From: Rhodospirillales bacterium | GTDB lineage: Bacteria > Pseudomonadota > Alphaproteobacteria > Dongiales > Dongiaceae | Reading direction: 5' to 3' | DNA: 62,641 nucleotides | Assembly (NCBI GenBank): GCA_009885795.1 | Contig: VFKA01000058.1 | Location: 1-62,641 of the forward strand | In this document: positions 49,066-61,419 of the stretch, one piece after another | Numbering within the stretch: the stretch's first letter is position 1 | Layout of the letters: each line of letters starts with the position of its first letter | The notes under the pieces: generated by a model | Seen by the model: only the letters and a program-made list of their open reading frames with translations | Told to the model about the DNA's origin: nothing | Database searches by the model: none | Made by a program: the position numbers and the translations under genes

Positions 49066-50355
49066 TCATTCCCGGATTCGCTCGATCGACGCGCCACAGG
49101 CCGAGAGCTTTTCCACCAACCGCTCGTAGCCGCGATCCAGGTGATAGACGCGGCTCAACGTCGTCTCGCCCTCGGCCGCCAATCCCGCCAACACCAAGGA
49201 CACCGAGGCGCGCAAATCCGTTGCCATGACTTCGGCGCCGCGCAACCGGGCAACACCGCGCACGAGCGCCGTCGCGCCGTGGACGTTGATGTTGGCTCCC
49301 ATGCGGCAGAGTTCCGGCACATGCATGAAGCGATTCTCGAAGATGGTCTCCGTGATCATGGCGGCCCCTTGCGCCGGCGCCATCAGGGCCATCATCTGGG
49401 CCTGTAAATCGGTCGGAAATCCGGGGAACGGCTCGGTCATGACGTCGACGCCGGCGAGAACGCCATTGGCGCGGCGCACATGCACGCCGCGCGGCGTTTC
49501 GCGTATCGTGACGCCTGCCTGCGTCAAGATCTCGGCCGCGGCGGAAATCAAATCGTACCGCGCCCCGACAAGCTCGATATCGCCATCGGTTATGGCGGCG
49601 GCCATGGCATAGGTACCGGTTTCGATTCGGTCCGGAACGATCCGATGCGTTGCCGCGTGCAAGCGATCGGTGCCGACGATCCGCAAGCGGCCGGTTCCAG
49701 CGCCCTCGATACAGGCTCCCATGGCGTTGAGACAGACCACGAGATCGGTGACCTCCGGCTCGCGCGCGGCGTTGACCAGGACCGTCTCGCCTCTGGCCAG
49801 GCTGGCGGCCATGAGCAGATTTTCGGTCGCCCCGACCGAGACCTTTGGAAACACGATCTCGGCGCCGACAAGGCCGTTCGGCGCCTTGGCGTGGATATAG
49901 CCATCCCGCAGTTCGATTTCGGCGCCGAGCTGCGTCAAGGCGCGCAGATGGAGATCGACCGGACGCGTGCCGATCGCGCATCCGCCAGGCAGCGACACCT
50001 GGGCCGACCCGCAACGCGCCAGCAGCGGCCCAAGGACGAGAACAGACGCCCGCATTTTCGAAACCAGGTCATAGGGCGCCGTGGTCTTCGTGATGTCGCG
50101 GGCCGTCAGCTCCAACAGGCGCGGCGTTTCATTGCTACTTGGGCCGGTCGTGCCCTCGATCCGGATCGACACGCCAAGCTGCGCCAGGAGGTCGGCCATG
50201 GTCGTGACGTCGGCCAGGTGCGGAACGTTGGTCAACCGCAGCGGCTGATCCATCAGCAAGGCTGCCGCCATGATCGGCAAGGCGGCGTTCTTGGCGCCGC
50301 CGATTTCGATCTCGCCCCTCAAGGGCGATCCGCCGCGAATGCGGATTTTATCCAT
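49066..50355 (-). CDS. murA: UDP-N-acetylglucosamine 1-carboxyvinyltransferase
   Basis: The 429-residue enzyme adds enolpyruvate to UDP-GlcNAc, the first committed step of peptidoglycan synthesis. It opens MDKIRIRGG, has [13 protein letters not shown], the fosfomycin-target Cys in [16 protein letters not shown] (near residue 120), and [14 protein letters not shown] near the end. It leads the murA-DUF2948-hisG-hisD run and complements the GlmU/GlmS supply further left. Confidence 0.96.
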
Positions 50356-50468
50356 CGCCGTTTCCCTGCTTTAAGAACCCCGACCCGAGCGCCGTTCTTA
50401 CCGGATGCGGCGCCAAGGCTCAAGAATTCCCTGCAATTGCGGCGGTTCCAGGGCGCAAATTCGAGGAG

Positions 50469-50663
50469 TCAGCGCCGGGGCGTCGTGTCGGGGTCGGGGG
50501 GCTCGGGGGATGCCAGGTCTTTCGAGGCCGGCGGGTGCCTTGCCTGCTTCTGGCGCTTGCGCTCGCGCAAGTTTCGGCGCAGGGCCTCGGCCAGGCGAGC
50601 CTGCCGGGCGGCACGCTCGCCGCCGCCTTTTGCGGACTTCGTGGGGTCTGACGGTCTTGGCAT
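50469..50663 (-). CDS. small basic conserved protein upstream of murA
   Basis: The 64-residue product is rich in Arg, Lys and Ala, with a helical ARQARLAEALRRNLRERKRQ segment and a Pro-rich tail. Proteins of this type recur upstream of murA in alphaproteobacteria, as far as I recall. The ATG at 50663 is preferred over one six codons upstream. Role unknown. Confidence 0.6.
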   Translation of the reverse strand: MPRPSDPTKSAKGGGERAARQARLAEALRRNLRERKRQKQARHPPASKDLASPEPPDPDTTPRR

Positions 50664-50795
50664 GCGCTCGGCGTCGATCATTGGGCCTGGATCGACACTA
50701 CCCTCGTGGCTCCAACAAGAAAACCCCGGCCGCGCTTGCGCCGTAGGGTGGGTCGGCCTACGCTCTTTTCAATCATCGCGTGTGGGTGATGTTCG

Positions 50796-51029
50796 ATGAA
50801 GATCGCTTGGCTTGGCGCCGGTCTAATGGCGGTCGTGATGGGGTTGGCCGGCCTGGCGCTCGCCCATTCCCCGACCAAGGCCAAGTACCCCTCGGCGCCG
50901 CTCTTTCCACTGGACGAGATCGTGAAGGAGATCGATCCCCGTTTCGCCGGGGAGGCCGTGGCCGAGGACGTGGTGGGGTATCCGGACGGTACCGTGGCGC
51001 TGGTCATCGCCATGTATCCGCGGGGATAA
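50796..51029 (+). CDS. propeller fragment 1: signal peptide and N-terminus
   Basis: A 77-residue frame with a clear signal peptide (MKIAWLGAGLMAVVMGLAGL, cleaved near LALA-HS) ends prematurely at TAA at 51027. The reading continues in the next frame as KGAGRIRIAYLDESGHVRQ, which is the natural continuation. Confidence 0.5.
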   Translation: MKIAWLGAGLMAVVMGLAGLALAHSPTKAKYPSAPLFPLDEIVKEIDPRFAGEAVAEDVVGYPDGTVALVIAMYPRG

Positions 51030-51075
51030 GGGCGCGGGGCGAATCCGGATCGCCTATCTCGACGAGTCCGGCCAC

Positions 51076-51990
51076 GTGCGGCAATCGGTGGACGTGACGG
51101 CCATCGCCGACGCCATCGGAGCGCGCGTGCGCGGGACGACTCTTTCCGGCCGATTGGGGACGCCGATGATCGGGTTCGAAGGCGGCGGCATCCTGTACGC
51201 CTCGCCCGACTACTACTACGATACGCGCCTGACCAGGATTAACCCCGACGGAACGCTGGCATGGACAAAGGTTTTCAGCGAGAGTTTGGTTCACGAGATA
51301 CCGCCGTTCGCACGGCTTCCTGACGGTGGATTCGTAATATTGGATAGCAACGGCGTCCCAGACACTCGAGACAGAGTCGGCTGCCGGTTGAGCCGTTTTG
51401 ACGGCGGCGGCGATCTGCTCTGGACCCGTATCCTTGGCAAGGATCGCGGGACCAGGCCTATCGCCATTTCCGTGCTGCCGGACGGTGAGCTGCTGGTCGG
51501 TTGTTACGTCGAAGAGCGATCCGGGTTCGAATACGATGCCAACGGCAGATTGACAAGGCTCGATGCGGCCGGAGAGATTCTATGGCAACGGAATATCCGG
51601 GGAACCCCCTATGTCGGCGCGGGTCTCGCGGACGGCTCGATGGCGATTCTCTCCCTCCACTACCTCCCGCCGCGCGGTTATGAGGTCGAGGCATGGGACA
51701 TCGCACGCTTCGGGCCTGACGGCGAGGAGATGTGGCGACGCTCAAACAAGGAATTCGGCGCGCCGATGGCGGATGTGGCCGAGCCGTACGGTGTCTCGGC
51801 TTTGTACGCGCGGGCGATGGTTCCGCTCCCCGGAGGCGGAATGGTGGTGCTAATGGAGCGGAATGGTGGTGCTAATGGAAATGCAGCCCACGGACCGATT
51901 GGACCTCATCATGGCTATGCGGCTATCGCCGGACGGGCATGTCCTATGGGTGCGTCCGGTCGCCGGCGACGACCGGCCAACTCAGACTGA
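51076..51990 (+). CDS. propeller fragment 2: repeat blades
   Basis: The 304-residue frame contains at least four repeats of the form LxRxDxxGxxxW spaced about 50-60 residues. It lacks an export signal, and its last 40 residues after MVVLMERNGGA are out of frame because of the tandem duplication. It is unlikely to be functional alone. Confidence 0.55.
   Translation: MRQSVDVTAIADAIGARVRGTTLSGRLGTPMIGFEGGGILYASPDYYYDTRLTRINPDGTLAWTKVFSESLVHEIPPFARLPDGGFVILDSNGVPDTRDRVGCRLSRFDGGGDLLWTRILGKDRGTRPIAISVLPDGELLVGCYVEERSGFEYDANGRLTRLDAAGEILWQRNIRGTPYVGAGLADGSMAILSLHYLPPRGYEVEAWDIARFGPDGEEMWRRSNKEFGAPMADVAEPYGVSALYARAMVPLPGGGMVVLMERNGGANGNAAHGPIGPHHGYAAIAGRACPMGASGRRRRPANSD
51838..51881 (+). repeat. 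22-bp tandem duplication
   Basis: GGAATGGTGGTGCTAATGGA occurs at 51838 and again at 51860, 22 nt apart. The two copies differ only in the two bases after the shared 20. Because 22 is not a multiple of three, the duplication shifts the frame of the propeller gene. Confidence 0.9.
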
Positions 51991-52158
51991 ATCCATCATC
52001 TGGAGCGTGGCAACGACACCGGACGGGAGGCTGCTGCTCGCGATCGAGGAACATGATTTTGTCACGTTTGATGATCGCCACTTGCTGTACGCCCTCCCTC
52101 TGGACTGAAGTCCCGAGCGGTCACGGGTTGACCGTCCCCTTGTTGGCCGAACGAACCA

Positions 52159-52410
52159 CTAACGACGTGTCCTATCCAAGAAATGTGAAGGGGTCGGTTC
52201 GAAGTACTGCCGTCGAAACTGCTCGTTGTCCGGCTCCTTTGCGACTACCTTTGTCTTGGGATCCGTGGTCTCGAAACGAGCGCGACGGGCATCCGAGATA
52301 TTCGCGTTCACGTCATTGCCAAGACCCGCCCCGATCAGCTTGTCGAGCGCGGTCTTGGTGCGGGATCCCAGATCGCCGTCCACAACGACATTGGCGCCGA
52401 TGGCTGCCAT
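52159..52410 (-). CDS. peptidoglycan-binding-like remnant, phage lysis type
   Basis: The 83-residue frame starts at ATG 52410 with AAGGG seven nt upstream. It has a VVVDGDLGSRTKTALDKLI segment and an SDARRARFE segment, which recalls the C-terminal peptidoglycan-binding part of GH108-type phage endolysins. The N-terminal catalytic part is missing. A TTG start at 52428 would overlap the upstream gene. It is probably a lysis-gene fragment. Confidence 0.5.
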   Translation of the reverse strand: MAAIGANVVVDGDLGSRTKTALDKLIGAGLGNDVNANISDARRARFETTDPKTKVVAKEPDNEQFRRQYFEPTPSHFLDRTRR

Positions 52411-52424
52411 TGAAAACCCTTGCG

Positions 52425-52748
52425 TCAATTGTCCACGGTTCGAACGGCCGATTCTTCGACCGTCGCGAGGAGATCAAGAACCTCGCCGTCACGGTTCAGA
52501 ATTGTGTATCTGTCTCGCAGTAGGGCGCGGATGAACTCGATCGACAATTCGGTTGCCTGTTCCGGATCAAACCCGTAAATTTTGCACCGTTGGCGAAGGA
52601 CGATTGGGCAGGAAACCCAGCAATAACAGTCACGCCCCTTCCTGTCCCGGACCGGCGCGGAAACCGCTAGGCGGAAAGGTCGCCGGGATCCATCGGATTC
52701 CAGCGCTATTCCAAGAATCCGTCGAGGCTTCTTCGTCAATTGTCCCAC
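52425..52748 (-). CDS. DUF6968-like small protein, candidate immunity partner
   Basis: The 107-residue soluble protein has a beta-rich N-terminus (RRPFRLAVSAPVRDRKG), a YCWVSC segment, then IYGFDPEQATELSIEFIRAL and a helical end. Gene length and layout resemble small DUF6968-type proteins, a recollection that needs a profile search. Its start overlaps the end of the proline-rich gene by 13 nt, so the two are cotranscribed and probably coupled. Confidence 0.55.
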   Translation of the reverse strand: MGQLTKKPRRILGIALESDGSRRPFRLAVSAPVRDRKGRDCYCWVSCPIVLRQRCKIYGFDPEQATELSIEFIRALLRDRYTILNRDGEVLDLLATVEESAVRTVDN

Positions 52749-53653
52749 GTGTCAAGCGGAGGAAGGGGATCGCCGCGCCGGCACGCCGCGTAACGCGCCA
52801 TTGCCGAAGCATAGCTCCGTTGCCCGGCCGCGGCACCTCGCCGTTTCGTAACGGCTCTACAAGTTGGAATGTCCACGTTGTGGAGCAAATTGTCGCAGTC
52901 TTGATCATTCGGCGTGTCGCCACTGAGGATCGGCGCGAGGCCGAGTATGGCCGCGACTCCAGGCAACCAGGCCGGGATCTGCCCGACCAGCCATGGTATG
53001 GCGAGAGCAGGCGCGGCGACGGGTTGCAATTGAATTGGACCTTGATTTGGCGGGCCGGCGGGTGCCAAAGCGGCCATGGATTCGAAAGACATCGCCGGCC
53101 GTTGATAGGGCCAACCGGCCGGCCCGGTCTGTTGGTTCGACTCAGGCATTTGTCCCCCAAGCCCCATGATCATGTCCAGTATCGTCGGCGGGGCCGGATA
53201 GCTCCTCATGTCGGGAACGAAGGGCGGCGTCCCATGGGGCTGTGCCGCGCGCGGCGCCGGGAAGGCCATGGGTCCGAAGGGGATCGGTGGCAACCTTGGA
53301 TAGGCCGAGGGGGCCGCGTTCGTGACCCGAGGATCGTAGGGCATCGCCGGCCGTTGATAAGGCGTACGTCCCCCAAGCTCCATGTCCAACAACGTCAGCG
53401 AAATCGGATAGTCGCTCTTGTTGGGAATGATGGGCGGCGTCCCATGGAACCGCCCCGGATAGGGCGCCAACGGAATGGGTGCGAACACGAACGGATCGTT
53501 CGGCCCACGCGGCGGATCGGTGTCGTGGAATGAAGGCGCGGCATTCAGGCGCTCACGCGGTTCGACCGTCGGCGCCGCGCGCCTCTTCGGCGATGGCCCG
53601 CTGCTTGTCGATGCCGGCTTGCACGAAATCGGCCACCTGATTGCGCTCGTCAT
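52736..53653 (-). CDS. proline-rich repeat protein with Cys-containing C-terminal domain
   Basis: The frame has two related Pro-rich units, each with HGTPP, a YP pair, LDM-GLGG-like residues and PYQRPAM. A hydrophobic stretch follows (IPWLVGQIPAWLPGVAAILG), then a C-terminal domain of about 55 residues with CDNLL, PTCRAVT, YAACRRGDPLPPLDTWDN. The ATG at 53653 is one option. Alternatively the protein continues from the 90-residue frame at 53553-53825 through a 1-nt frameshift near 53570. The C-terminal pattern recurs at the ends of toxin-like and phage proteins, as I recall it. Confidence 0.5.
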   Translation of the reverse strand: MTSAIRWPISCKPASTSSGPSPKRRAAPTVEPRERLNAAPSFHDTDPPRGPNDPFVFAPIPLAPYPGRFHGTPPIIPNKSDYPISLTLLDMELGGRTPYQRPAMPYDPRVTNAAPSAYPRLPPIPFGPMAFPAPRAAQPHGTPPFVPDMRSYPAPPTILDMIMGLGGQMPESNQQTGPAGWPYQRPAMSFESMAALAPAGPPNQGPIQLQPVAAPALAIPWLVGQIPAWLPGVAAILGLAPILSGDTPNDQDCDNLLHNVDIPTCRAVTKRRGAAAGQRSYASAMARYAACRRGDPLPPLDTWDN

Positions 53654-53825
53654 TGAAGATTTTCGCGTCAGCAAAGGGCGTCCTGGGCGACCCTGACGGC
53701 TTCCAGCCCTCGGAGAGAAGGCGCTCGCGCAGGGCGCGCTCCGCGGCCTCGCGGCGCAGCATGCGCGTGAATTGCTCGGCTCCCCAGGCGGTGCTGCCGA
53801 ATGCCGGGGGACTGCGGTTTGCCAT
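53553..53825 (-). CDS. phage-type small protein or N-terminus of the proline-rich protein
   Basis: The 90-residue frame starts MANRSPPAFGSTAWGAEQF, is helical and charged in the middle (LRREAAERALRERLLSEGW) and ends in EEARGADGRTA. Its end overlaps the next frame. Dropping one base in the CGCGGCGCC run joins EEAR to APTVEPRERLNAAPSFHD and gives one protein of about 370 residues. Both readings are given because sequence alone cannot decide. Confidence 0.5.
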   Translation of the reverse strand: MANRSPPAFGSTAWGAEQFTRMLRREAAERALRERLLSEGWKPSGSPRTPFADAKIFNDERNQVADFVQAGIDKQRAIAEEARGADGRTA

Positions 53826-53956
53826 TGGTTTGACTCCACGGAAATGTTCAAAGGGGGAGTGGCCTGGGCCCGTGCCGCGCGGGGGTCGCATCGCCCCCGG
53901 CGCTTGCCCAATCCGCGGCCGGTGTGGCATGGTCCGCCGCGATCGCACCCACGGAT

Positions 53957-53988
53957 GCCGCCGTAGCTCAGTGGCAGAGCGCGCCCTT
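53957..53988 (+). tRNA. 5' fragment of a tRNA gene (tRNA-Thr-like), truncated
   Basis: GCCGCCG, TA, GCTC-AGTGGCA-GAGC, G, CGCCC and TT match the acceptor 5' strand, D-arm and 5' half of the anticodon stem-loop of a tRNA, closest in memory to tRNA-Thr(CGT). The sequence then leaves the tRNA inside the anticodon loop and enters antisense terminase DNA. There is no T-arm or CCA, so it is not functional. Confidence 0.6.
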
Positions 53989-54102
53989 TCCGAATCGCCG
54001 GTGCGCGACCAGCACGTTGAATCGTTGAAGCTGCCCGTGCAGTTCCGCTTGATGCGCGCGCGGCACATAGAGCGGGACAGTCGTGTCTCGTTCTTCCGCC
54101 AT
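53968..54102 (-). pseudogene. phage terminase large subunit, N-terminal stub
   Basis: The 44-codon frame has PLYVPRAHQAELHGQLQRFN followed by VLVAHRRFGKG. This matches the start of phage large terminases, which run from RAWQ-like residues to the Walker A motif HRRFGKT. It ends within a few codons of the Walker A lysine, where the DNA becomes a reversed tRNA fragment. All remaining terminase domains are missing. Confidence 0.65.
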
Positions 54103-54177
54103 GTGCCCGCGCCAAAAAAAAGATGTTGATGGATCGTGGCAACCGGCACCACGCCGTATCGCGCTACGTCCCGATGG

Positions 54178-54552
54178 CTATGAGTCCGTGCTATCCGGGG
54201 TCGGTGCGCCCAACCGAGGCCCACCCCACACCAGGCGCACGACCCGCTCCTTGCCCCGCTCCAGGGCCGGCTCGGTGTCTTCCGCATTGCTGCGGCCGAA
54301 TCCCCAACCGAGCAAGGCCGTGGCCGCCGATACGCGCGCGGCTGGCGTCGCGTTCGAATCCTCCATGACCGCCGCGAGCGCGGCGATGGCTGCTGTCCCG
54401 TGCTGGATGGCCAATTGCCGCAGCGCCGATTTGCCGACGCAACTCGCCTCGACGCCGGCCGGATTCGAACCGCCACCGGTACTGTTGCGTCGTTTGGTCA
54501 TGGACTCTGGCGCCCTCGATCGACCCACTGCCCCATTCAACATTTTCATCAT
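54178..54552 (-). CDS. phage protein upstream of terminase, possible small terminase
   Basis: The 124-residue protein has a helical centre (IAALAAVMEDSNATPAARVSAATALLG) and lies directly before the large terminase stub, the position of small terminase subunits. The ATG at 54552 overlaps the stop of the upstream gene as ATGA and has AGGAA upstream; a Met 17 codons later is an alternative. DNA binding cannot be seen. Confidence 0.6.
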   Translation of the reverse strand: MMKMLNGAVGRSRAPESMTKRRNSTGGGSNPAGVEASCVGKSALRQLAIQHGTAAIAALAAVMEDSNATPAARVSAATALLGWGFGRSNAEDTEPALERGKERVVRLVWGGPRLGAPTPDSTDS

Positions 54553-55181
54553 ATGATACTGTTCCTACACTTGTCAACAAGAATCGGCGGCGCGCTTTGC
54601 CGCAGGCTGGGGGCGCGGTGCGCGTCCATGCTGCCGGCCGCCCGTGACGCCCGGCCGTAGCAGGCGACGAGCACGTCAAGCCCGGCCAGCACGTTTGCAA
54701 GTTCGCCGTTGTTTTCCCTCGACAACCGGTCCTGTCGCCGGCGTGGCCCGTCGAGCGCGGCGGGAGAACGCTGGAACACCACGACATTTTCCGTGGCGTC
54801 GCAGATTCGCCGGCCGGCCGCGAGAAGACGGTTCTTGCCCATTCGATAGCGCCGTTCGAGTTGGGCTTGCGCCGCCTCGTCCAGAAGGTCGGCGAAGGGA
54901 CCATGGTCGCCCATGATCGCTCGATAGAGAAAGGTGCAAGAGAGCTGCGTATGGCCGATCGCCCGCCGATAGAGATAGGCGTAATAGCATCCGGCATCGT
55001 GTTGCATCCGATCGATATGCGCGCGGGCGAGCAGCAGGCCCAGCGGGTACTCGGTCATGACTGGATCGGCCCCGTTGGCAAGTGACAGTCTCCTGGCCTG
55101 AGACTCGGGCGTACCGTGGTCATCGCCTGTTCGCGCGCTTCCGGGCCGGCCGCGCTTGCGCCGCCTACTCCAGGCTTTCAT
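54549..55181 (-). CDS. phage-associated hypothetical protein
   Basis: The 210-residue protein opens MKAWSRRRKRGRPGSARTGD and contains GLLLARAHIDRMQHDAGCYY and AYLYRRAIGH. Proteins with this layout recur before terminase genes in alphaproteobacterial prophages, as I recall. It may be a late regulator or a packaging accessory. It overlaps both neighbours (17 nt upstream, 4 nt downstream). Confidence 0.65.
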   Translation of the reverse strand: MKAWSRRRKRGRPGSARTGDDHGTPESQARRLSLANGADPVMTEYPLGLLLARAHIDRMQHDAGCYYAYLYRRAIGHTQLSCTFLYRAIMGDHGPFADLLDEAAQAQLERRYRMGKNRLLAAGRRICDATENVVVFQRSPAALDGPRRRQDRLSRENNGELANVLAGLDVLVACYGRASRAAGSMDAHRAPSLRQSAPPILVDKCRNSII

Positions 55182-55404
55182 CGTCTCGATCCTCGTCCTG
55201 ACCGTTCGTGGTTTCGCCAAACCCACCCATGGCCCAGCATTTGCCCCACTCGATCAGCCACAAGGCGCGTTCGGCCGTCATCTCGCTGCACACCACTTGA
55301 AATTCGCCCGTGCCCGTAACCCCTACGACCACGAAGTCCCGCCACCAATTGGCGTCCCCCGCCGAACCGGCTTTGCCGCCGCTTATCCCGTTCATCTGGG
55401 TCAT
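55165..55404 (-). CDS. small phage early protein
   Basis: The 79-residue protein begins MTQMNGISGGKAGSAGDANW and ends with an acidic tail. The strong GGGAGGA site supports the ATG at 55404 over one 8 codons upstream. It is the first gene of the leftward operon. I do not recognise a function. Confidence 0.65.
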   Translation of the reverse strand: MTQMNGISGGKAGSAGDANWWRDFVVVGVTGTGEFQVVCSEMTAERALWLIEWGKCWAMGGFGETTNGQDEDRDDESLE

Positions 55405-55437
55405 GATTTTCGGTCCTCCCTGATGCATTATGCGTGA

Positions 55438-55465
55438 ATGATACGCTAGTAGCGTTTTATGTCAA
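55438..55465 (-). promoter_or_regulatory. leftward prophage promoter with operator
   Basis: On the minus strand TTGACA (55460-55465) and TATCAT (55438-55443) are 16 bp apart. The spacer holds the inverted repeat ACGC-TAGTA-GCGT (55443-55455). It drives the leftward genes at 55404 and beyond. The same ACGC-N5-GCGT element is found in the rightward promoter. Confidence 0.72.
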
Positions 55466-55514
55466 GTGCGTTTTTTTCATTGATTTTGCCGAACCCGCCG
55501 CCTAACATGACCTC

Positions 55515-56186
55515 ATGGAGGTTTCCGAGGCAGCGCGCCGTTTGAAGACGCTTCGTGAGCAAGCGCGGCTGCCCATGCGCGTCGTCGCCGAAACCCTCGG
55601 CTGGACCTTGACCCGATACCAACACTATGAAGACCGGTATCGGCGAACTTTCCTGCCGGTCGAACTGGCGCGCCGCCTGGCCGATCTGTTCGGTGCCCAT
55701 GGCATCGATCCACGCGAGATCCTGCTGTTGGCTGGAATCGAGGCGGGCGCCGCGCCACGAATGTCGTTGAAGACCCTGCCCTTTGGGGTCGCCCCGGGCT
55801 TACGGGATCTCCCCGTCATGGGCACCGCCAAAGGCGGATCGGGGGGCTTTTATTTCAATGATGGCGAGCCCAAGGAACATGTCGACCGGCCGGCAAGCCT
55901 GGTCGGCGTCGCCAACGCTTTTGCTCTTTATGTCGATGGCGACAGCATGGAACCTCGCTACTTCGCCGGCGAAACGGTGTACGTCAACCCCAACCGTCCG
56001 ATCACGCGCAACTGCTTTGTCGCGGTCGAGATGCAGGACGGCCAAGGGTTCATCAAGCGGTTCATCCGGCGCAGCGACGAACATGTCGTGCTGCACCAGT
56101 TCAATCCGCCGAAGGATATCCGACTCTCGGCGCGCGAGGTGAAGCAGCTCTATCGGATTACCGGAACCGGCGAATCGACATCGTGA
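55515..56186 (+). CDS. phage CI-like repressor (HTH plus S24 peptidase domain)
   Basis: The 223-residue protein has an N-terminal helix-turn-helix (about residues 4-60, LKTLREQARLPMRVVAETLG) and a C-terminal LexA-like domain with the catalytic Ser in VDGDSMEPRYFAGE and the Lys in GFIKRFI. Such repressors hold a lysogen and cleave themselves on RecA activation. The gene lies between two promoters that share one operator sequence. No Shine-Dalgarno sequence is visible before the ATG. Confidence 0.88.
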   Translation: MEVSEAARRLKTLREQARLPMRVVAETLGWTLTRYQHYEDRYRRTFLPVELARRLADLFGAHGIDPREILLLAGIEAGAAPRMSLKTLPFGVAPGLRDLPVMGTAKGGSGGFYFNDGEPKEHVDRPASLVGVANAFALYVDGDSMEPRYFAGETVYVNPNRPITRNCFVAVEMQDGQGFIKRFIRRSDEHVVLHQFNPPKDIRLSAREVKQLYRITGTGESTS

Positions 56187-56221
56187 TTCGCGCCGGTCGC
56201 CCGGACGGCTCGCGATCGGGC

Positions 56222-56251
56222 TTGACGGATATAACGCTGTATGCGTATAAT
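56222..56251 (+). promoter_or_regulatory. rightward prophage promoter with operator
   Basis: TTGACG (56222-56227) and a perfect TATAAT (56246-56251) are separated by 18 bp. The spacer contains ACGC-TGTAT-GCGT (56234-56246). It is oriented towards the gene at 56284. The operator matches the leftward one in both half-sites and in spacing. Confidence 0.75.
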
Positions 56252-56283
56252 GCTCCCTTCAAGGACGTGAAGGGAGTACCCGG

Positions 56284-56550
56284 ATGTCTTTTCGCGCGCG
56301 GGAGTTGAGCGTTCTGGCTTACGCCAACGGGTTTACCCTGTGGCACTACCGAACCGGCGACGGGCTCGACGCCCTCCTCGCCGGAAACAAGGCCGGGTAT
56401 TTCACGCCGGCCGGGGAATTGCTGCGGCCCGGCGACCAGATCATCGTCAATCTGCTGGAAGCCTCGGGGCCGGCCGTGATCAATCTCGCGGTCGCGGGCG
56501 GTGGCGACGGGGCCGTTGCCGTCTATTCCCTGCCGCGCGCCTCGGGCTAG
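56284..56550 (+). CDS. small phage-associated protein
   Basis: The 88-residue protein has SVLAYANGFTLWHYRTGDG near the start and GYFTPAGELLRPGDQIIVNL in the middle. This type recurs in alphaproteobacterial phages, often among late genes, as I recall. AAGGGAG lies just before the ATG. It is the only gene downstream of the rightward promoter and overlaps the convergent lipoprotein gene by 4 nt. Confidence 0.7.
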   Translation: MSFRARELSVLAYANGFTLWHYRTGDGLDALLAGNKAGYFTPAGELLRPGDQIIVNLLEASGPAVINLAVAGGGDGAVAVYSLPRASG

Positions 56551-56777
56551 TTCGCGGCCTGATAGGCTCCGACCAGCCGGGAAGGCTCCGCCGCCGGCAG
56601 CGGCAAGCAGTCAACCTCGCCGAGTGTCCGGTAGCAATAGACCGGCGGCGGGGCCGCGAGCTGATCCCTAGGCTTGAATTCGGCCTGGCGCAGTGTCGTC
56701 TCGCTTGGACCCCAGCGCGTGTTGCCGCAACCCGCCAGCACGCCGACGATCGCCGCTATGGTTAACCACCGTCTCAT
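56547..56777 (-). CDS. small lipoprotein
   Basis: The 76-residue product has a lipoprotein signal with lipobox LAGC (MRRWLTIAAIVGVLAGCGN), followed by a short Pro-rich domain with CYRTLGEVDC, which may form a disulfide. GAGGAG precedes the ATG at 56777. Function unknown. Confidence 0.75.
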   Translation of the reverse strand: MRRWLTIAAIVGVLAGCGNTRWGPSETTLRQAEFKPRDQLAAPPPVYCYRTLGEVDCLPLPAAEPSRLVGAYQAAN

Positions 56778-56847
56778 AATCTTGGTTGCTCCTCGACCCG
56801 ATCCCGCCATTCCGCGAAATCGTACACACGCAACCCTTGCCCAGAGG

Positions 56848-57834
56848 TTAAGCGTTCACGTCGACCACCACCCGGCCACGTATCTTGCCCGCGAGAATCT
56901 CCGGCCCCAGGGCGATTAGTTCGCCGAGCGGGACCGTCCGCGTCAAGGCGTCGAGCTTCGCCATCGGCAAGTCCCGAACCAGCCGTGCCCAGGCGGCATT
57001 GCGTCGCTCGGCCGGGCACATGACCGAGTCGATGCCGAGCAGATTGACCCCCCGCAACAGGAACGGAATGACCGTCGTCTCGAACTTGGTGCCGCCGGCC
57101 AGGCCGCAGGCGGCAACGGAGCCGCCGTATTTGATGCCCGGCAGGATCGCCGCCAGTGTCGATCCACCGACGGAATCGACGCAGCCGGCCCATCGTTCGG
57201 CGTCGAGGGGCTTGCCCGACGGCGCCGCCACGGTCGAGCGCTCGATCACGTCCGTCGCGCCGAGCGCCCTCAGGTAGTCATGCGTTTCGGGCCGTCCCGT
57301 CGAGGCAACGACCCGATAGCCGAGATGGGCGAGCGCCGCCGTGGCGACGCTGCCGACGCCGCCCGCGGCACCGGTCACGAGAACCTCGCCGCGGGCCGGC
57401 GTCAAACCGTGATCTTCGAGAGCGATGATCGCCAGCATCGCGGTGAAGCCGGCGGTGCCGATCGCCATCGCTCGGCTTGCCGTCAATCCCGCAGGCAACT
57501 TGACCAGCCAGTCGCCCTTGACCCGGGCCTTCTGGGCGTAGCCGCCCCACCGCGATTCGCCGACGCGCCAGCCGGTCAGAATGACGGCATCGCCCACCTT
57601 CCACGCGGGTGCGCTCGATGCCTCGACGGTCCCAACGAAATCGACACCCGGCACGTGCGGATACTGCCGGACCAGCCGGCCGATCCCGCCCAGGATCATC
57701 CCGTCCTTGTAGTTGAGCGTCGAGTACTGAACCGCGACGGTCACGTCGCCATCCGGCAGCCTGTCTTCGGACAGCGATTGAACCGCGCCCGAGACCTTGC
57801 CGTCTCTTTCCTCGAGTACGAGTGCCTTGAACAT
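56848..57834 (-). CDS. acuI: acryloyl-CoA reductase-type oxidoreductase (YhdH/AcuI)
   Basis: The 328-residue MDR-family NADPH oxidoreductase has YSTLNYKDGMIL near residue 38, GVDFVGTVEAS, the nucleotide-binding VTGAAGGVGSVA near residue 150, and ends in GRVVVDVNA. AcuI/YhdH reduces acryloyl-CoA to propionyl-CoA. It lies 30 nt after the thiolase gene on the same strand. Confidence 0.88.
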   Translation of the reverse strand: MFKALVLEERDGKVSGAVQSLSEDRLPDGDVTVAVQYSTLNYKDGMILGGIGRLVRQYPHVPGVDFVGTVEASSAPAWKVGDAVILTGWRVGESRWGGYAQKARVKGDWLVKLPAGLTASRAMAIGTAGFTAMLAIIALEDHGLTPARGEVLVTGAAGGVGSVATAALAHLGYRVVASTGRPETHDYLRALGATDVIERSTVAAPSGKPLDAERWAGCVDSVGGSTLAAILPGIKYGGSVAACGLAGGTKFETTVIPFLLRGVNLLGIDSVMCPAERRNAAWARLVRDLPMAKLDALTRTVPLGELIALGPEILAGKIRGRVVVDVNA

Positions 57835-60414: not shown

Positions 60415-60516
60415 TGGTAAAACTCTACATCGGCTCGACCCAGACGGCAAGCCGAGAGCCCCCTTGCATTGCGAGCATGGTTTGCCGATGCTGCGAGGCA
60501 ATTATGCGGGCCGACC

Positions 60517-61419
60517 ATGGATAACGCGGATTTTTGCCTCCACGATGGACGAGGAGTCCTCGCCGTCAGCGGTCCCGACGCCGGCGCCTTTCTCCAAGGC
60601 CTCATCACGAATGACGTTACGGTCGTGACGCCCGAGCGGGCGATCCATGCGGCCCTGCTGACACCGCAAGGCAAGTACCTGCACGACTTCTTCGTCGTCG
60701 CCCTCGAAGGCGCGCTCTATCTGGATTGCGAGGCGGCTCGTCTGTCCGATCTCCTGCGCCGGCTGTCCATGTACAAGCTGCGATCCAAAGTCGTTCTCGC
60801 CGATGCCGGCGATCGTTTTTCGGTCGCGGTCCTCTACGGCCCGCAAGCCTTGTCCACGCTGTCGCTGCCGGCAGAGCCGGGCCGCGCCCGCGCGCTCGAC
60901 GGCGGCGTCGCCTATGTCGATCCGCGGCTGGCCGCGCTCGGCGCGCGCGCCCTTCTGCCTCGCGAGGGCGGCGTTGAAATGCTGACGGCGCTCGGGTGTC
61001 GACTTGGCAATCCCGACGACTATGACCGCCTGCGGTTGTCCCTCGGCGTTCCCGACGGCAGTCGCGATCTCGTGGTGGAAAAATCGATCCTGCTCGAAGC
61101 CGGCTTCGACGAGTTGCACGGCATCGATTGGAACAAGGGTTGCTATCTCGGCCAGGAACTGACGGCGCGCACCAAGCACCGCGGCACCATCCGCAAGCGG
61201 CTCGTGCCGGTTGCGATCGAAGGCCCGGTGCCCGCCATCGGCACGCCCATCCTGGTGGGCGCGGTCGAGGCCGGCGAGATGCGCAGCGCCCGGCCCGGTC
61301 TTGGCATTGCGCTCCTACGTTTGGACTTCATCGAAGACAATCGGACTTCCACCGAACTTCGCGCCGGCGAAGCACGTATCCGGCCCATGAAACCATTTTG
61401 GCTCGACGGAAAGGATTGA
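60517..61419 (+). CDS. ygfZ: folate-binding protein YgfZ
   Basis: The 300-residue GCV_T-fold protein has the signature KGCYLGQELTARTKHRG near residue 207 and LQGLITNDV near the start. YgfZ helps Fe-S cluster enzymes such as MiaB using tetrahydrofolate. The start is divergent from pyrC with a 102-nt gap. Confidence 0.9.
   Translation: MDNADFCLHDGRGVLAVSGPDAGAFLQGLITNDVTVVTPERAIHAALLTPQGKYLHDFFVVALEGALYLDCEAARLSDLLRRLSMYKLRSKVVLADAGDRFSVAVLYGPQALSTLSLPAEPGRARALDGGVAYVDPRLAALGARALLPREGGVEMLTALGCRLGNPDDYDRLRLSLGVPDGSRDLVVEKSILLEAGFDELHGIDWNKGCYLGQELTARTKHRGTIRKRLVPVAIEGPVPAIGTPILVGAVEAGEMRSARPGLGIALLRLDFIEDNRTSTELRAGEARIRPMKPFWLDGKD

Follow-up and report, generated by a model that had tools for sequence, protein, structure and literature searches.

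A CI-type repressor switch in Dongiaceae as the probable control end of a podovirus-derived, chromosomally inherited element

The lambda-type immunity region, one of the described systems closest to the locus studied here, is built from the CI repressor, the OL/PL and OR/PR control regions with three operators each, and Cro, and its repressor undergoes RecA-stimulated autocleavage. The window, that is, the whole stretch of 62,641 nucleotides that was analysed, is contig C99 of a 3.46-Mb genome from Dongiaceae, the family that holds Dongia in the NCBI taxonomy. It resembles the lambda arrangement in that a repressor with HTH and S24 domains lies between outward promoters, with putative palindromic sites over both. 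It differs from lambda in having one strong site per promoter, plus one weak candidate at 55423, instead of three, and in the absence of a Cro-type gene: its rightward gene r88 is capsid-decoration-like, and the leftward operon of its relatives runs into terminase and virion genes.

Another group of related systems are the gene transfer agents (GTAs). Their published definition (PMC9662315, section 3) has a genomic side, comprising caudoviricete-derived proteins, full endogenization and mostly vertical inheritance, and an experimental side, in which the agent packages mostly random host DNA in a head too small for its own cluster and delivers that DNA. CcGTA is held off by RogA via the activators gafYZ (PMC11150451). 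The Dongiaceae element is similar to RcGTA, CcGTA and other GTAs in its chromosomally fixed caudoviricete-derived virion genes, its apparent vertical inheritance and the purifying selection estimated for it. Unlike them, it is podoviral, with a T7-type connector or SU10-type portal and an LME-1-type capsid, and its virion operons directly adjoin an S24 repressor gene.

The abundance of GTAs is an open question because candidates are found by their likeness to known ones (PMC11841831). If podoviral GTAs exist, they would have been missed, since GTA searches start from RcGTA. We found no paper combining 'gene transfer agent' and 'Dongia', and among the matches listed a podoviral GTA is not named in titles or the beginnings of abstracts; one paper (PMC4961962) reports a lytic siphovirus that combines podovirus-like and GTA-like features. 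A podoviral element that an entire family apparently inherits in place, under a putative repressor gate, makes the question of GTA abundance testable, with natural deletions in several species and the deposited strain Dongia mobilis as test material.

The repressor, its promoters and the neighbouring genes

The window repressor contains a Peptidase_S24 domain (PF00717, E 6e-14) and an HTH_31 domain (E 7e-8) in Pfam, and it is assigned to phrog_4, 'transcriptional repressor' (4e-23). Its S24 dyad is intact, with Ser144 (GDSMEP) and Lys181 (FIKRF) at a spacing of 37, and the cleavage site, aligned to LexA by hand, presumably reads Gly-Gly against the expected Ala-Gly. The C repressor of Rhizobium phage 16-3 shows 39% identity to the S24 half, the match being limited to residues 99-220 with none reported for the HTH half. 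A search of the repressor profile against the PDB gave no match at 0.001. Since the predicted model (mean pLDDT 69) falls below 50 in the linker and cleavage region, it was left out of the geometry. Coordinates of the features are collected in Table 1.

Table 1. Features of the switch region and its flanks, in window coordinates
Feature	Position	Strand	Remarks
murA, left host flank	49066-50355	-	likewise in G002, G004
Large terminase stump	53974-54099	-	32-42 N-terminal residues
terS, third leftward gene	54178-54552	-	phrog_15261 (unknown function); ORF open
l225, second leftward gene, conserved unknown protein	54549-55226	-	ORF open
l87, first leftward gene	55165-55428	-	conserved motif around MTAERALWL
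Possible weaker second left site, ATGCATTATGCGT	55423-55435	.	1 mismatch to ACGYN5RCGT
Leftward promoter, TTGACA-16-TATCAT	55438-55465	-	11/12 bases; GCG precedes -10
Left operator-like site, ACGCTAGTAGCGT	55443-55455	.	predicted; covers first base of leftward -10
S24/HTH (CI-type) repressor, 223 aa	55515-56186	+	Pfam, PHROG, 17/17 family orthologues
Rightward promoter, TTGACG-18-TATAAT	56222-56251	+	11/12 bases
Right operator-like site, ACGCTGTATGCGT	56234-56246	.	predicted; covers first base of rightward -10
r88, capsid-decoration-like protein, 88 aa	56284-56550	+	phrog_18004 (unknown function)
qor-type reductase, right host flank	56848-57834	-	near repressor in 17/17 family genomes

An independent scan of 3 kb recovered both promoters among four promoter-like sites; shuffled sequences gave 0.7. 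ACGC-N5-GCGT occurs in the same register at both promoters, its last T being the first base of the -10 when read in promoter direction. The bare pattern matches at 4 places in the window against 3.35 expected, and at 124 places genome-wide against 92 for the reversed pattern; being near chance in both, it was set aside as evidence, since the motif alone carries little and the weight comes from its position and from the relatives. The extended form TAACGYN5RCGTTA, to which the right site of the window has two mismatches, was rejected as a regulon marker: with one mismatch allowed it occurs 0-9 times per genome, below the 17-73 of the reversed-pattern control. A third promoter-like site, TTGACA-18-TATGAT (54548-54577, minus strand), stands directly before the terS frame.

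The first-pass annotation had described a CI-like S24 repressor between two divergent promoters, with the same inverted repeat inside both spacers, and had likened the arrangement to a lambda switch. Pfam, PHROG and the promoter scan agree with the repressor and the promoters, and the repeat lies where it was placed to within one base. The annotation had also proposed a search for further copies in the genome, with a chance frequency counting against the repeat, and at the genome-wide counts given above the repeat by itself carries little weight. Of the lambda comparison, the layout and the single strong operator-like site per promoter stand; the rightward gene is not cro-like. As far as its sequence anatomy goes, the two-promoter switch is real and the observation is confirmed.

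r88 has no match in Pfam and nothing significant in a sequence search of the PDB, and Foldseek found no match at E 0.001 for r88 against the PDB. With a second aligner, the predicted model (pLDDT 86.9) superimposes on 9eg4_H, an 89-residue capsid chain of the Legionella phage LME-1, with a Z of 10.0 and an rmsd of 1.7 over 74 residues; the next row has a Z of 5.7. At E 0.001 the protein also matches six viral predicted structures; five carry the label uncharacterized and the sixth has no name. Judged by this model, r88 resembles a capsid decoration protein of mainly beta fold, so that a capsid-decoration-like gene would occupy the cro position. Homologues are present in 50 of 289 sampled alphaproteobacterial genomes. 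We inspected stretches of up to 20 kb around them in 19 of the 46 genomes outside the family, and podoviral capsid, connector or tail genes were found at all 19 loci. With r88 resembling a capsid protein and its homologues surrounded by capsid and tail genes, virion genes would come under direct control of the switch. In Dongiaceae r88 adjoins the repressor under the putative operator; elsewhere in the Alphaproteobacteria its usual place is after the capsid gene. The capsid of Dongia mobilis itself matches the major capsid chain of LME-1 (PDB 9eg4) with an E of 7e-10.

On the other side of the repressor, the likely true start of l87 is 55404, after GGGAGG, as read by eye, and tblastn matched the gene in ten further genomes of the family as well as L046-L048. 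The third leftward gene is called a small terminase by position only. The terminase stump has 62-74% identity to nine of ten matching relatives, and 38% over 72 aa to the tenth (G001). Leftward of the stump, down to 50301, nothing matched element proteins. Compared with its relatives, the window gives pN/pS values of 0.25-0.52 for the repressor and r88 and of 0.44-0.80 for l225 and terS (l225 alone 0.47-0.69 against six relatives); these values are averages and mostly record the time before the element was truncated.

The expected place of the terminase body is taken up by a long proline-rich ORF (52736-54142) and a small one (52425-52748), neither with a Pfam or PHROG match, and in G002, too, a proline-rich ORF follows the terminase. 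The papain-fold toxin family PF15644 was matched by one of 46 scanned element-region proteins (pool of G002, G009 and G004), which together with the proline-rich ORFs makes a toxin-immunity cargo possible. ARAGORN reports a tRNA-Thr at 61113-61208 (minus strand), inside the open frame 60469-61419 and probably a false positive.

The element in 17 Dongiaceae genomes

A repressor orthologue (55-70% identity) is present in all 17 family genomes, in each of them with qor 0.03-4.4 kb to its right. Using tblastn we detected at least one of l87, l225, terS, terminase and r88 in 11 genomes, and none of the five in the six others (G003, G006, G007, G010, G012, G014). In G002 murA and the repressor are about 28 kb apart; the interval grows to about 38 kb in G004 and is about 5 kb in the window. 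Eight genomes carry podoviral portal genes in the element, of SU10 type in G002, G004 and G008 and as a T7-type connector in G009, G011, G013, G015 and G016 (G013 has it on a different contig, along with the remaining module), a split that implies at least one module replacement. Terminase, portal, capsid and tail families were found in the relatives G002 and G009, the latter with an LME-1-type capsid and tail proteins, and the Pfam families of the element's virion genes are PF12236, PF23899 and PF19821. Nine genomes show no in-element portal, implying that decay is common: the window copy and G005 are truncated, and G001, where the element is interrupted by a contig end, has no portal in a 94% complete genome.

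These comparisons also bear on the initial description of the locus as a gutted prophage with a truncated terminase and no capsid or tail genes, whose switch had outlived the phage. Matching to the terminase indeed ends after about 40 residues, and no capsid or tail protein of the relatives matches within 50301-57000; a genome-wide search for the two portal types and the PF19821 capsid found none of them in the window genome. That the switch outlived the phage is supported by the 6 of 17 genomes that keep the repressor without the five neighbouring phage genes. The window copy is gutted as described, but it is one decayed copy of an element that lies beside qor in 17 of 17 genomes and not a chance prophage.

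On the left, G000, G002 and G004 have murA-hisG-hisD as their flank, and a different block of host genes takes this place in the Dongia group and the phage-less genomes. With a differing left flank and a constant qor, rearrangement must be assumed, and the gene order suggests a chromosomal rearrangement with its breakpoint in or beside the element. Genome-wide, integrases were searched as PF00589 (tyrosine integrase) only. PF00589 was not found inside the element in the six portal-bearing genomes searched out of eight (G002, G004, G008, G009, G011 and G013); in G002 its closest match is more than 15 kb past murA, and in G008 a sub-threshold match stands 46 kb away. From 97 frames called in and around the element of G002, G009 and G004 with a simple gene caller of our own, which sets the gene starts, 46 proteins were scanned together; they matched 20 Pfam families, with an IS1595 transposase as the only recombinase. 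In G014, where the qor site holds only a bare repressor, another contig has a T7-type connector close to an additional S24 repressor (33% identical) at G014:C1:192271-199886, apparently a separate podoviral element.

With respect to the control sites, GCG stands directly before the -10 in all eight leftward promoters found in the family, window included; they belong to 8 of the 11 genomes in which element genes were detected, and none of the six lacking such genes has one. For the right site, the last 97-120 nt before the aligned r88 start were scanned in the 11 r88-bearing genomes, window included. ACGYN5RCGT is present there with no mismatch in six and with one in five, 37-80 nt before r88, at single-genome P values of 0.001-0.108 that cannot be multiplied because the genomes are related. 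Rightward promoters were found in six genomes, three of them with the GCG-before--10 register (window, G004, G008), and the same scan found none in the other 5 of the 11; in G009, G015 and G016 the right site abuts the rightward -35. Left of the repressor, the window has the exact palindrome, as do phage-less G003, G007, G010 and G012, where it lies at the repressor's own promoter, and the best site in the other 12 genomes has 1-2 mismatches, at chance level (P 0.21-0.97). Being at chance level in 12 of 17 genomes, ACGYN5RCGT was abandoned on this side and replaced by the GCG fused to the -10.

The repressor and qor trees share the clades {G000,G001,G002,G004,G008} and {G003,G007,G010,G012} and the six-genome Dongia mobilis group. 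Support for the first of these, the window's own clade, is 98/97 in the repressor tree and a weak 79/87 in the qor tree, and G006 and G014 are, weakly, placed differently in the two. Between G004 and G008 the dS of phage genes is 0.38 for portal, 0.43 for capsid, 0.47 for terminase, 0.33 for scaffold and 0.54-0.57 for three further virion genes, in comparison with 0.36 for qor, 0.48 for dihydroorotase and 0.35 for the repressor. The corresponding dN/dS is 0.11 for capsid, 0.26 for portal, 0.24 for terminase and 0.52 for scaffold, with a range of 0.21-0.32 across portal, terminase and three others. For six Dongia-group pairs the connector dS is 0.59-0.85 against 0.57-0.86 for qor, single pairs differing, and several genes of this group exceed host dS, namely the phage genes F30 (0.84-1.17) and F43 (0.78-1.23), r88 (0.69-1.09) and l225 (0.80-0.99). 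By these estimates the virion genes are under purifying selection, with a synonymous divergence about that of the flanking host genes.

Set beside the genomic definition of a GTA, caudoviricete-derived proteins are encoded in the relatives, the window holding only remnants; the genome of the element is endogenized, as seen in the same neighbourhood in 17 of 17 genomes and the PF00589 result; and inheritance is vertical with co-diversification, as seen in shared main clades and similar dS, with the fast genes as exceptions. From its genes, the element looks like a GTA-like domestication.

Proposed reading and its alternatives

We give a probability of about 0.73 to the region being the control end of a podovirus-derived element that probably lay beside qor in the Dongiaceae ancestor and has since been inherited with the chromosome. 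The same neighbourhood, the shared main clades, similar dS, purifying selection and the absence of a tyrosine integrase where searched all point to an inherited element. Such an element would be a candidate for an unrecognised kind of GTA, of which only the switch and a handful of genes remain in the window genome. Its anatomy suggests that the repressor binds sites overlapping the -10 of both outward promoters and excludes RNA polymerase, the site overlapping the rightward -35 instead in G009, G015 and G016. Bound repressor would silence together the rightward capsid-decoration-like gene and the leftward operon, which in relatives comprises two small conserved genes, terminase, portal, capsid and tail genes. 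Its release, possibly by autocleavage, would switch on the particle genes directly, as in a GTA. Since the window genome lacks everything past about terminase codon 40, its switch would drive only the small leftward genes and r88, and no particle is possible from this copy.

Compatible with this reading, though less likely than not, is that the repressor is kept for its own sake, to confer immunity to related phages or to regulate the host, with the phage genes as passengers. It would explain why all 17 genomes have the repressor, including six with no detected phage genes, and why the motif TRYQHYEDRY of the HTH does not vary among the 19 aligned sequences (those of the 17 genomes plus two IMG/VR contigs). 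The catalytic Lys is replaced by Arg in five of the six phage-less genomes, three of which have also lost the Ser, and in G003, G007, G010 and G012 (the last 68% complete) the sole exact TAACGYN5RCGTTA of the genome is at the repressor's own promoter. Against it, all 11 genomes in which element genes were found have an intact Ser/Lys dyad, as has phage-less G006, and loss of the dyad amounts to two events at most on the tree; the lack of a second exact site in G003, G007, G010 and G012, where only exact sites were judged, speaks against a wide host regulon. The phage-less repressors fit maintenance for immunity or self-regulation, and these genomes show the fate of a phage repressor, with the DNA-binding part frozen and the self-cleaving part lost in five of six.

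Markedly less probable is an ordinary defective prophage, derived from a single ancestral integration followed by neutral decay, in which the repressor and promoters of the window have merely not yet been lost. The truncated copies in the window and G005, the portal-less G001 and the 6 of 17 genomes without neighbouring phage genes are all as it predicts. Neutral decay, however, does not agree with virion genes that are open, under purifying selection and of host-like divergence in G004/G008 and the Dongia mobilis group, nor with the leftward promoter and its fused GCG, retained in 8 of the 11 genomes where element genes were found. Repeated re-entry of a live temperate phage at one attachment site, e.g. 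by host XerCD at dif, would explain the single fixed neighbourhood, the lack of an internal tyrosine integrase where searched and the three similar contigs filed as viral in IMG/VR, but it is very improbable given phage and flank genes of similar dS, repressor clades that follow the qor clades, and no replication gene among the matches listed for about 61 of the 97 called proteins.

Podoviral modules in other Alphaproteobacteria

The PF19821 capsid was found in 95 of 385 sampled alphaproteobacterial genomes, five with two matches and the rest with one. From families with several positives we took 40 loci; the capsid was recovered in 33 and seven were excluded, and the capsid tree comprises these 33 and three Dongiaceae rows. 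Eleven of the 12 host families with at least two rows form one clade each, and in f97 a single distant copy breaks the group. The order of the module is conserved in f68, f73, f90 and f136; less is common to other pairs, such as the f16 pair with only the capsid, one tail gene and one more, and G112/G220 with one gene. For G189/G284 the dS of phage genes is 0.40-0.85, against 0.53-0.65 for three flanking host genes, and in several other pairs dS is saturated, which makes those pairs uninformative. In all 21 genomes checked, as far as the contigs reach, no PF00589 match came within 15 kb of the capsid.

On these gene-level grounds, loci L151-L190 may possibly represent a class-wide podoviral GTA lineage. 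We put forward, tentatively and as something rather less than an even bet, that podoviral GTAs distinct from RcGTA follow host families across Alphaproteobacteria, 0.9-Mb genomes included, that some are gated by an S24 repressor at their virion operons, and that the window is an end stage in which the switch was left after the machine had been deleted.

Relatives of the S24 repressor lie near the connector elsewhere at 3 of 19 loci and in all four f90 genomes (L135, L137, L142, L154-L157). In one genus, three sampled genomes of 0.9 Mb (G083, G202, G372) carry PF19821 modules, which adjoin dnaB and other host genes, named by eye.
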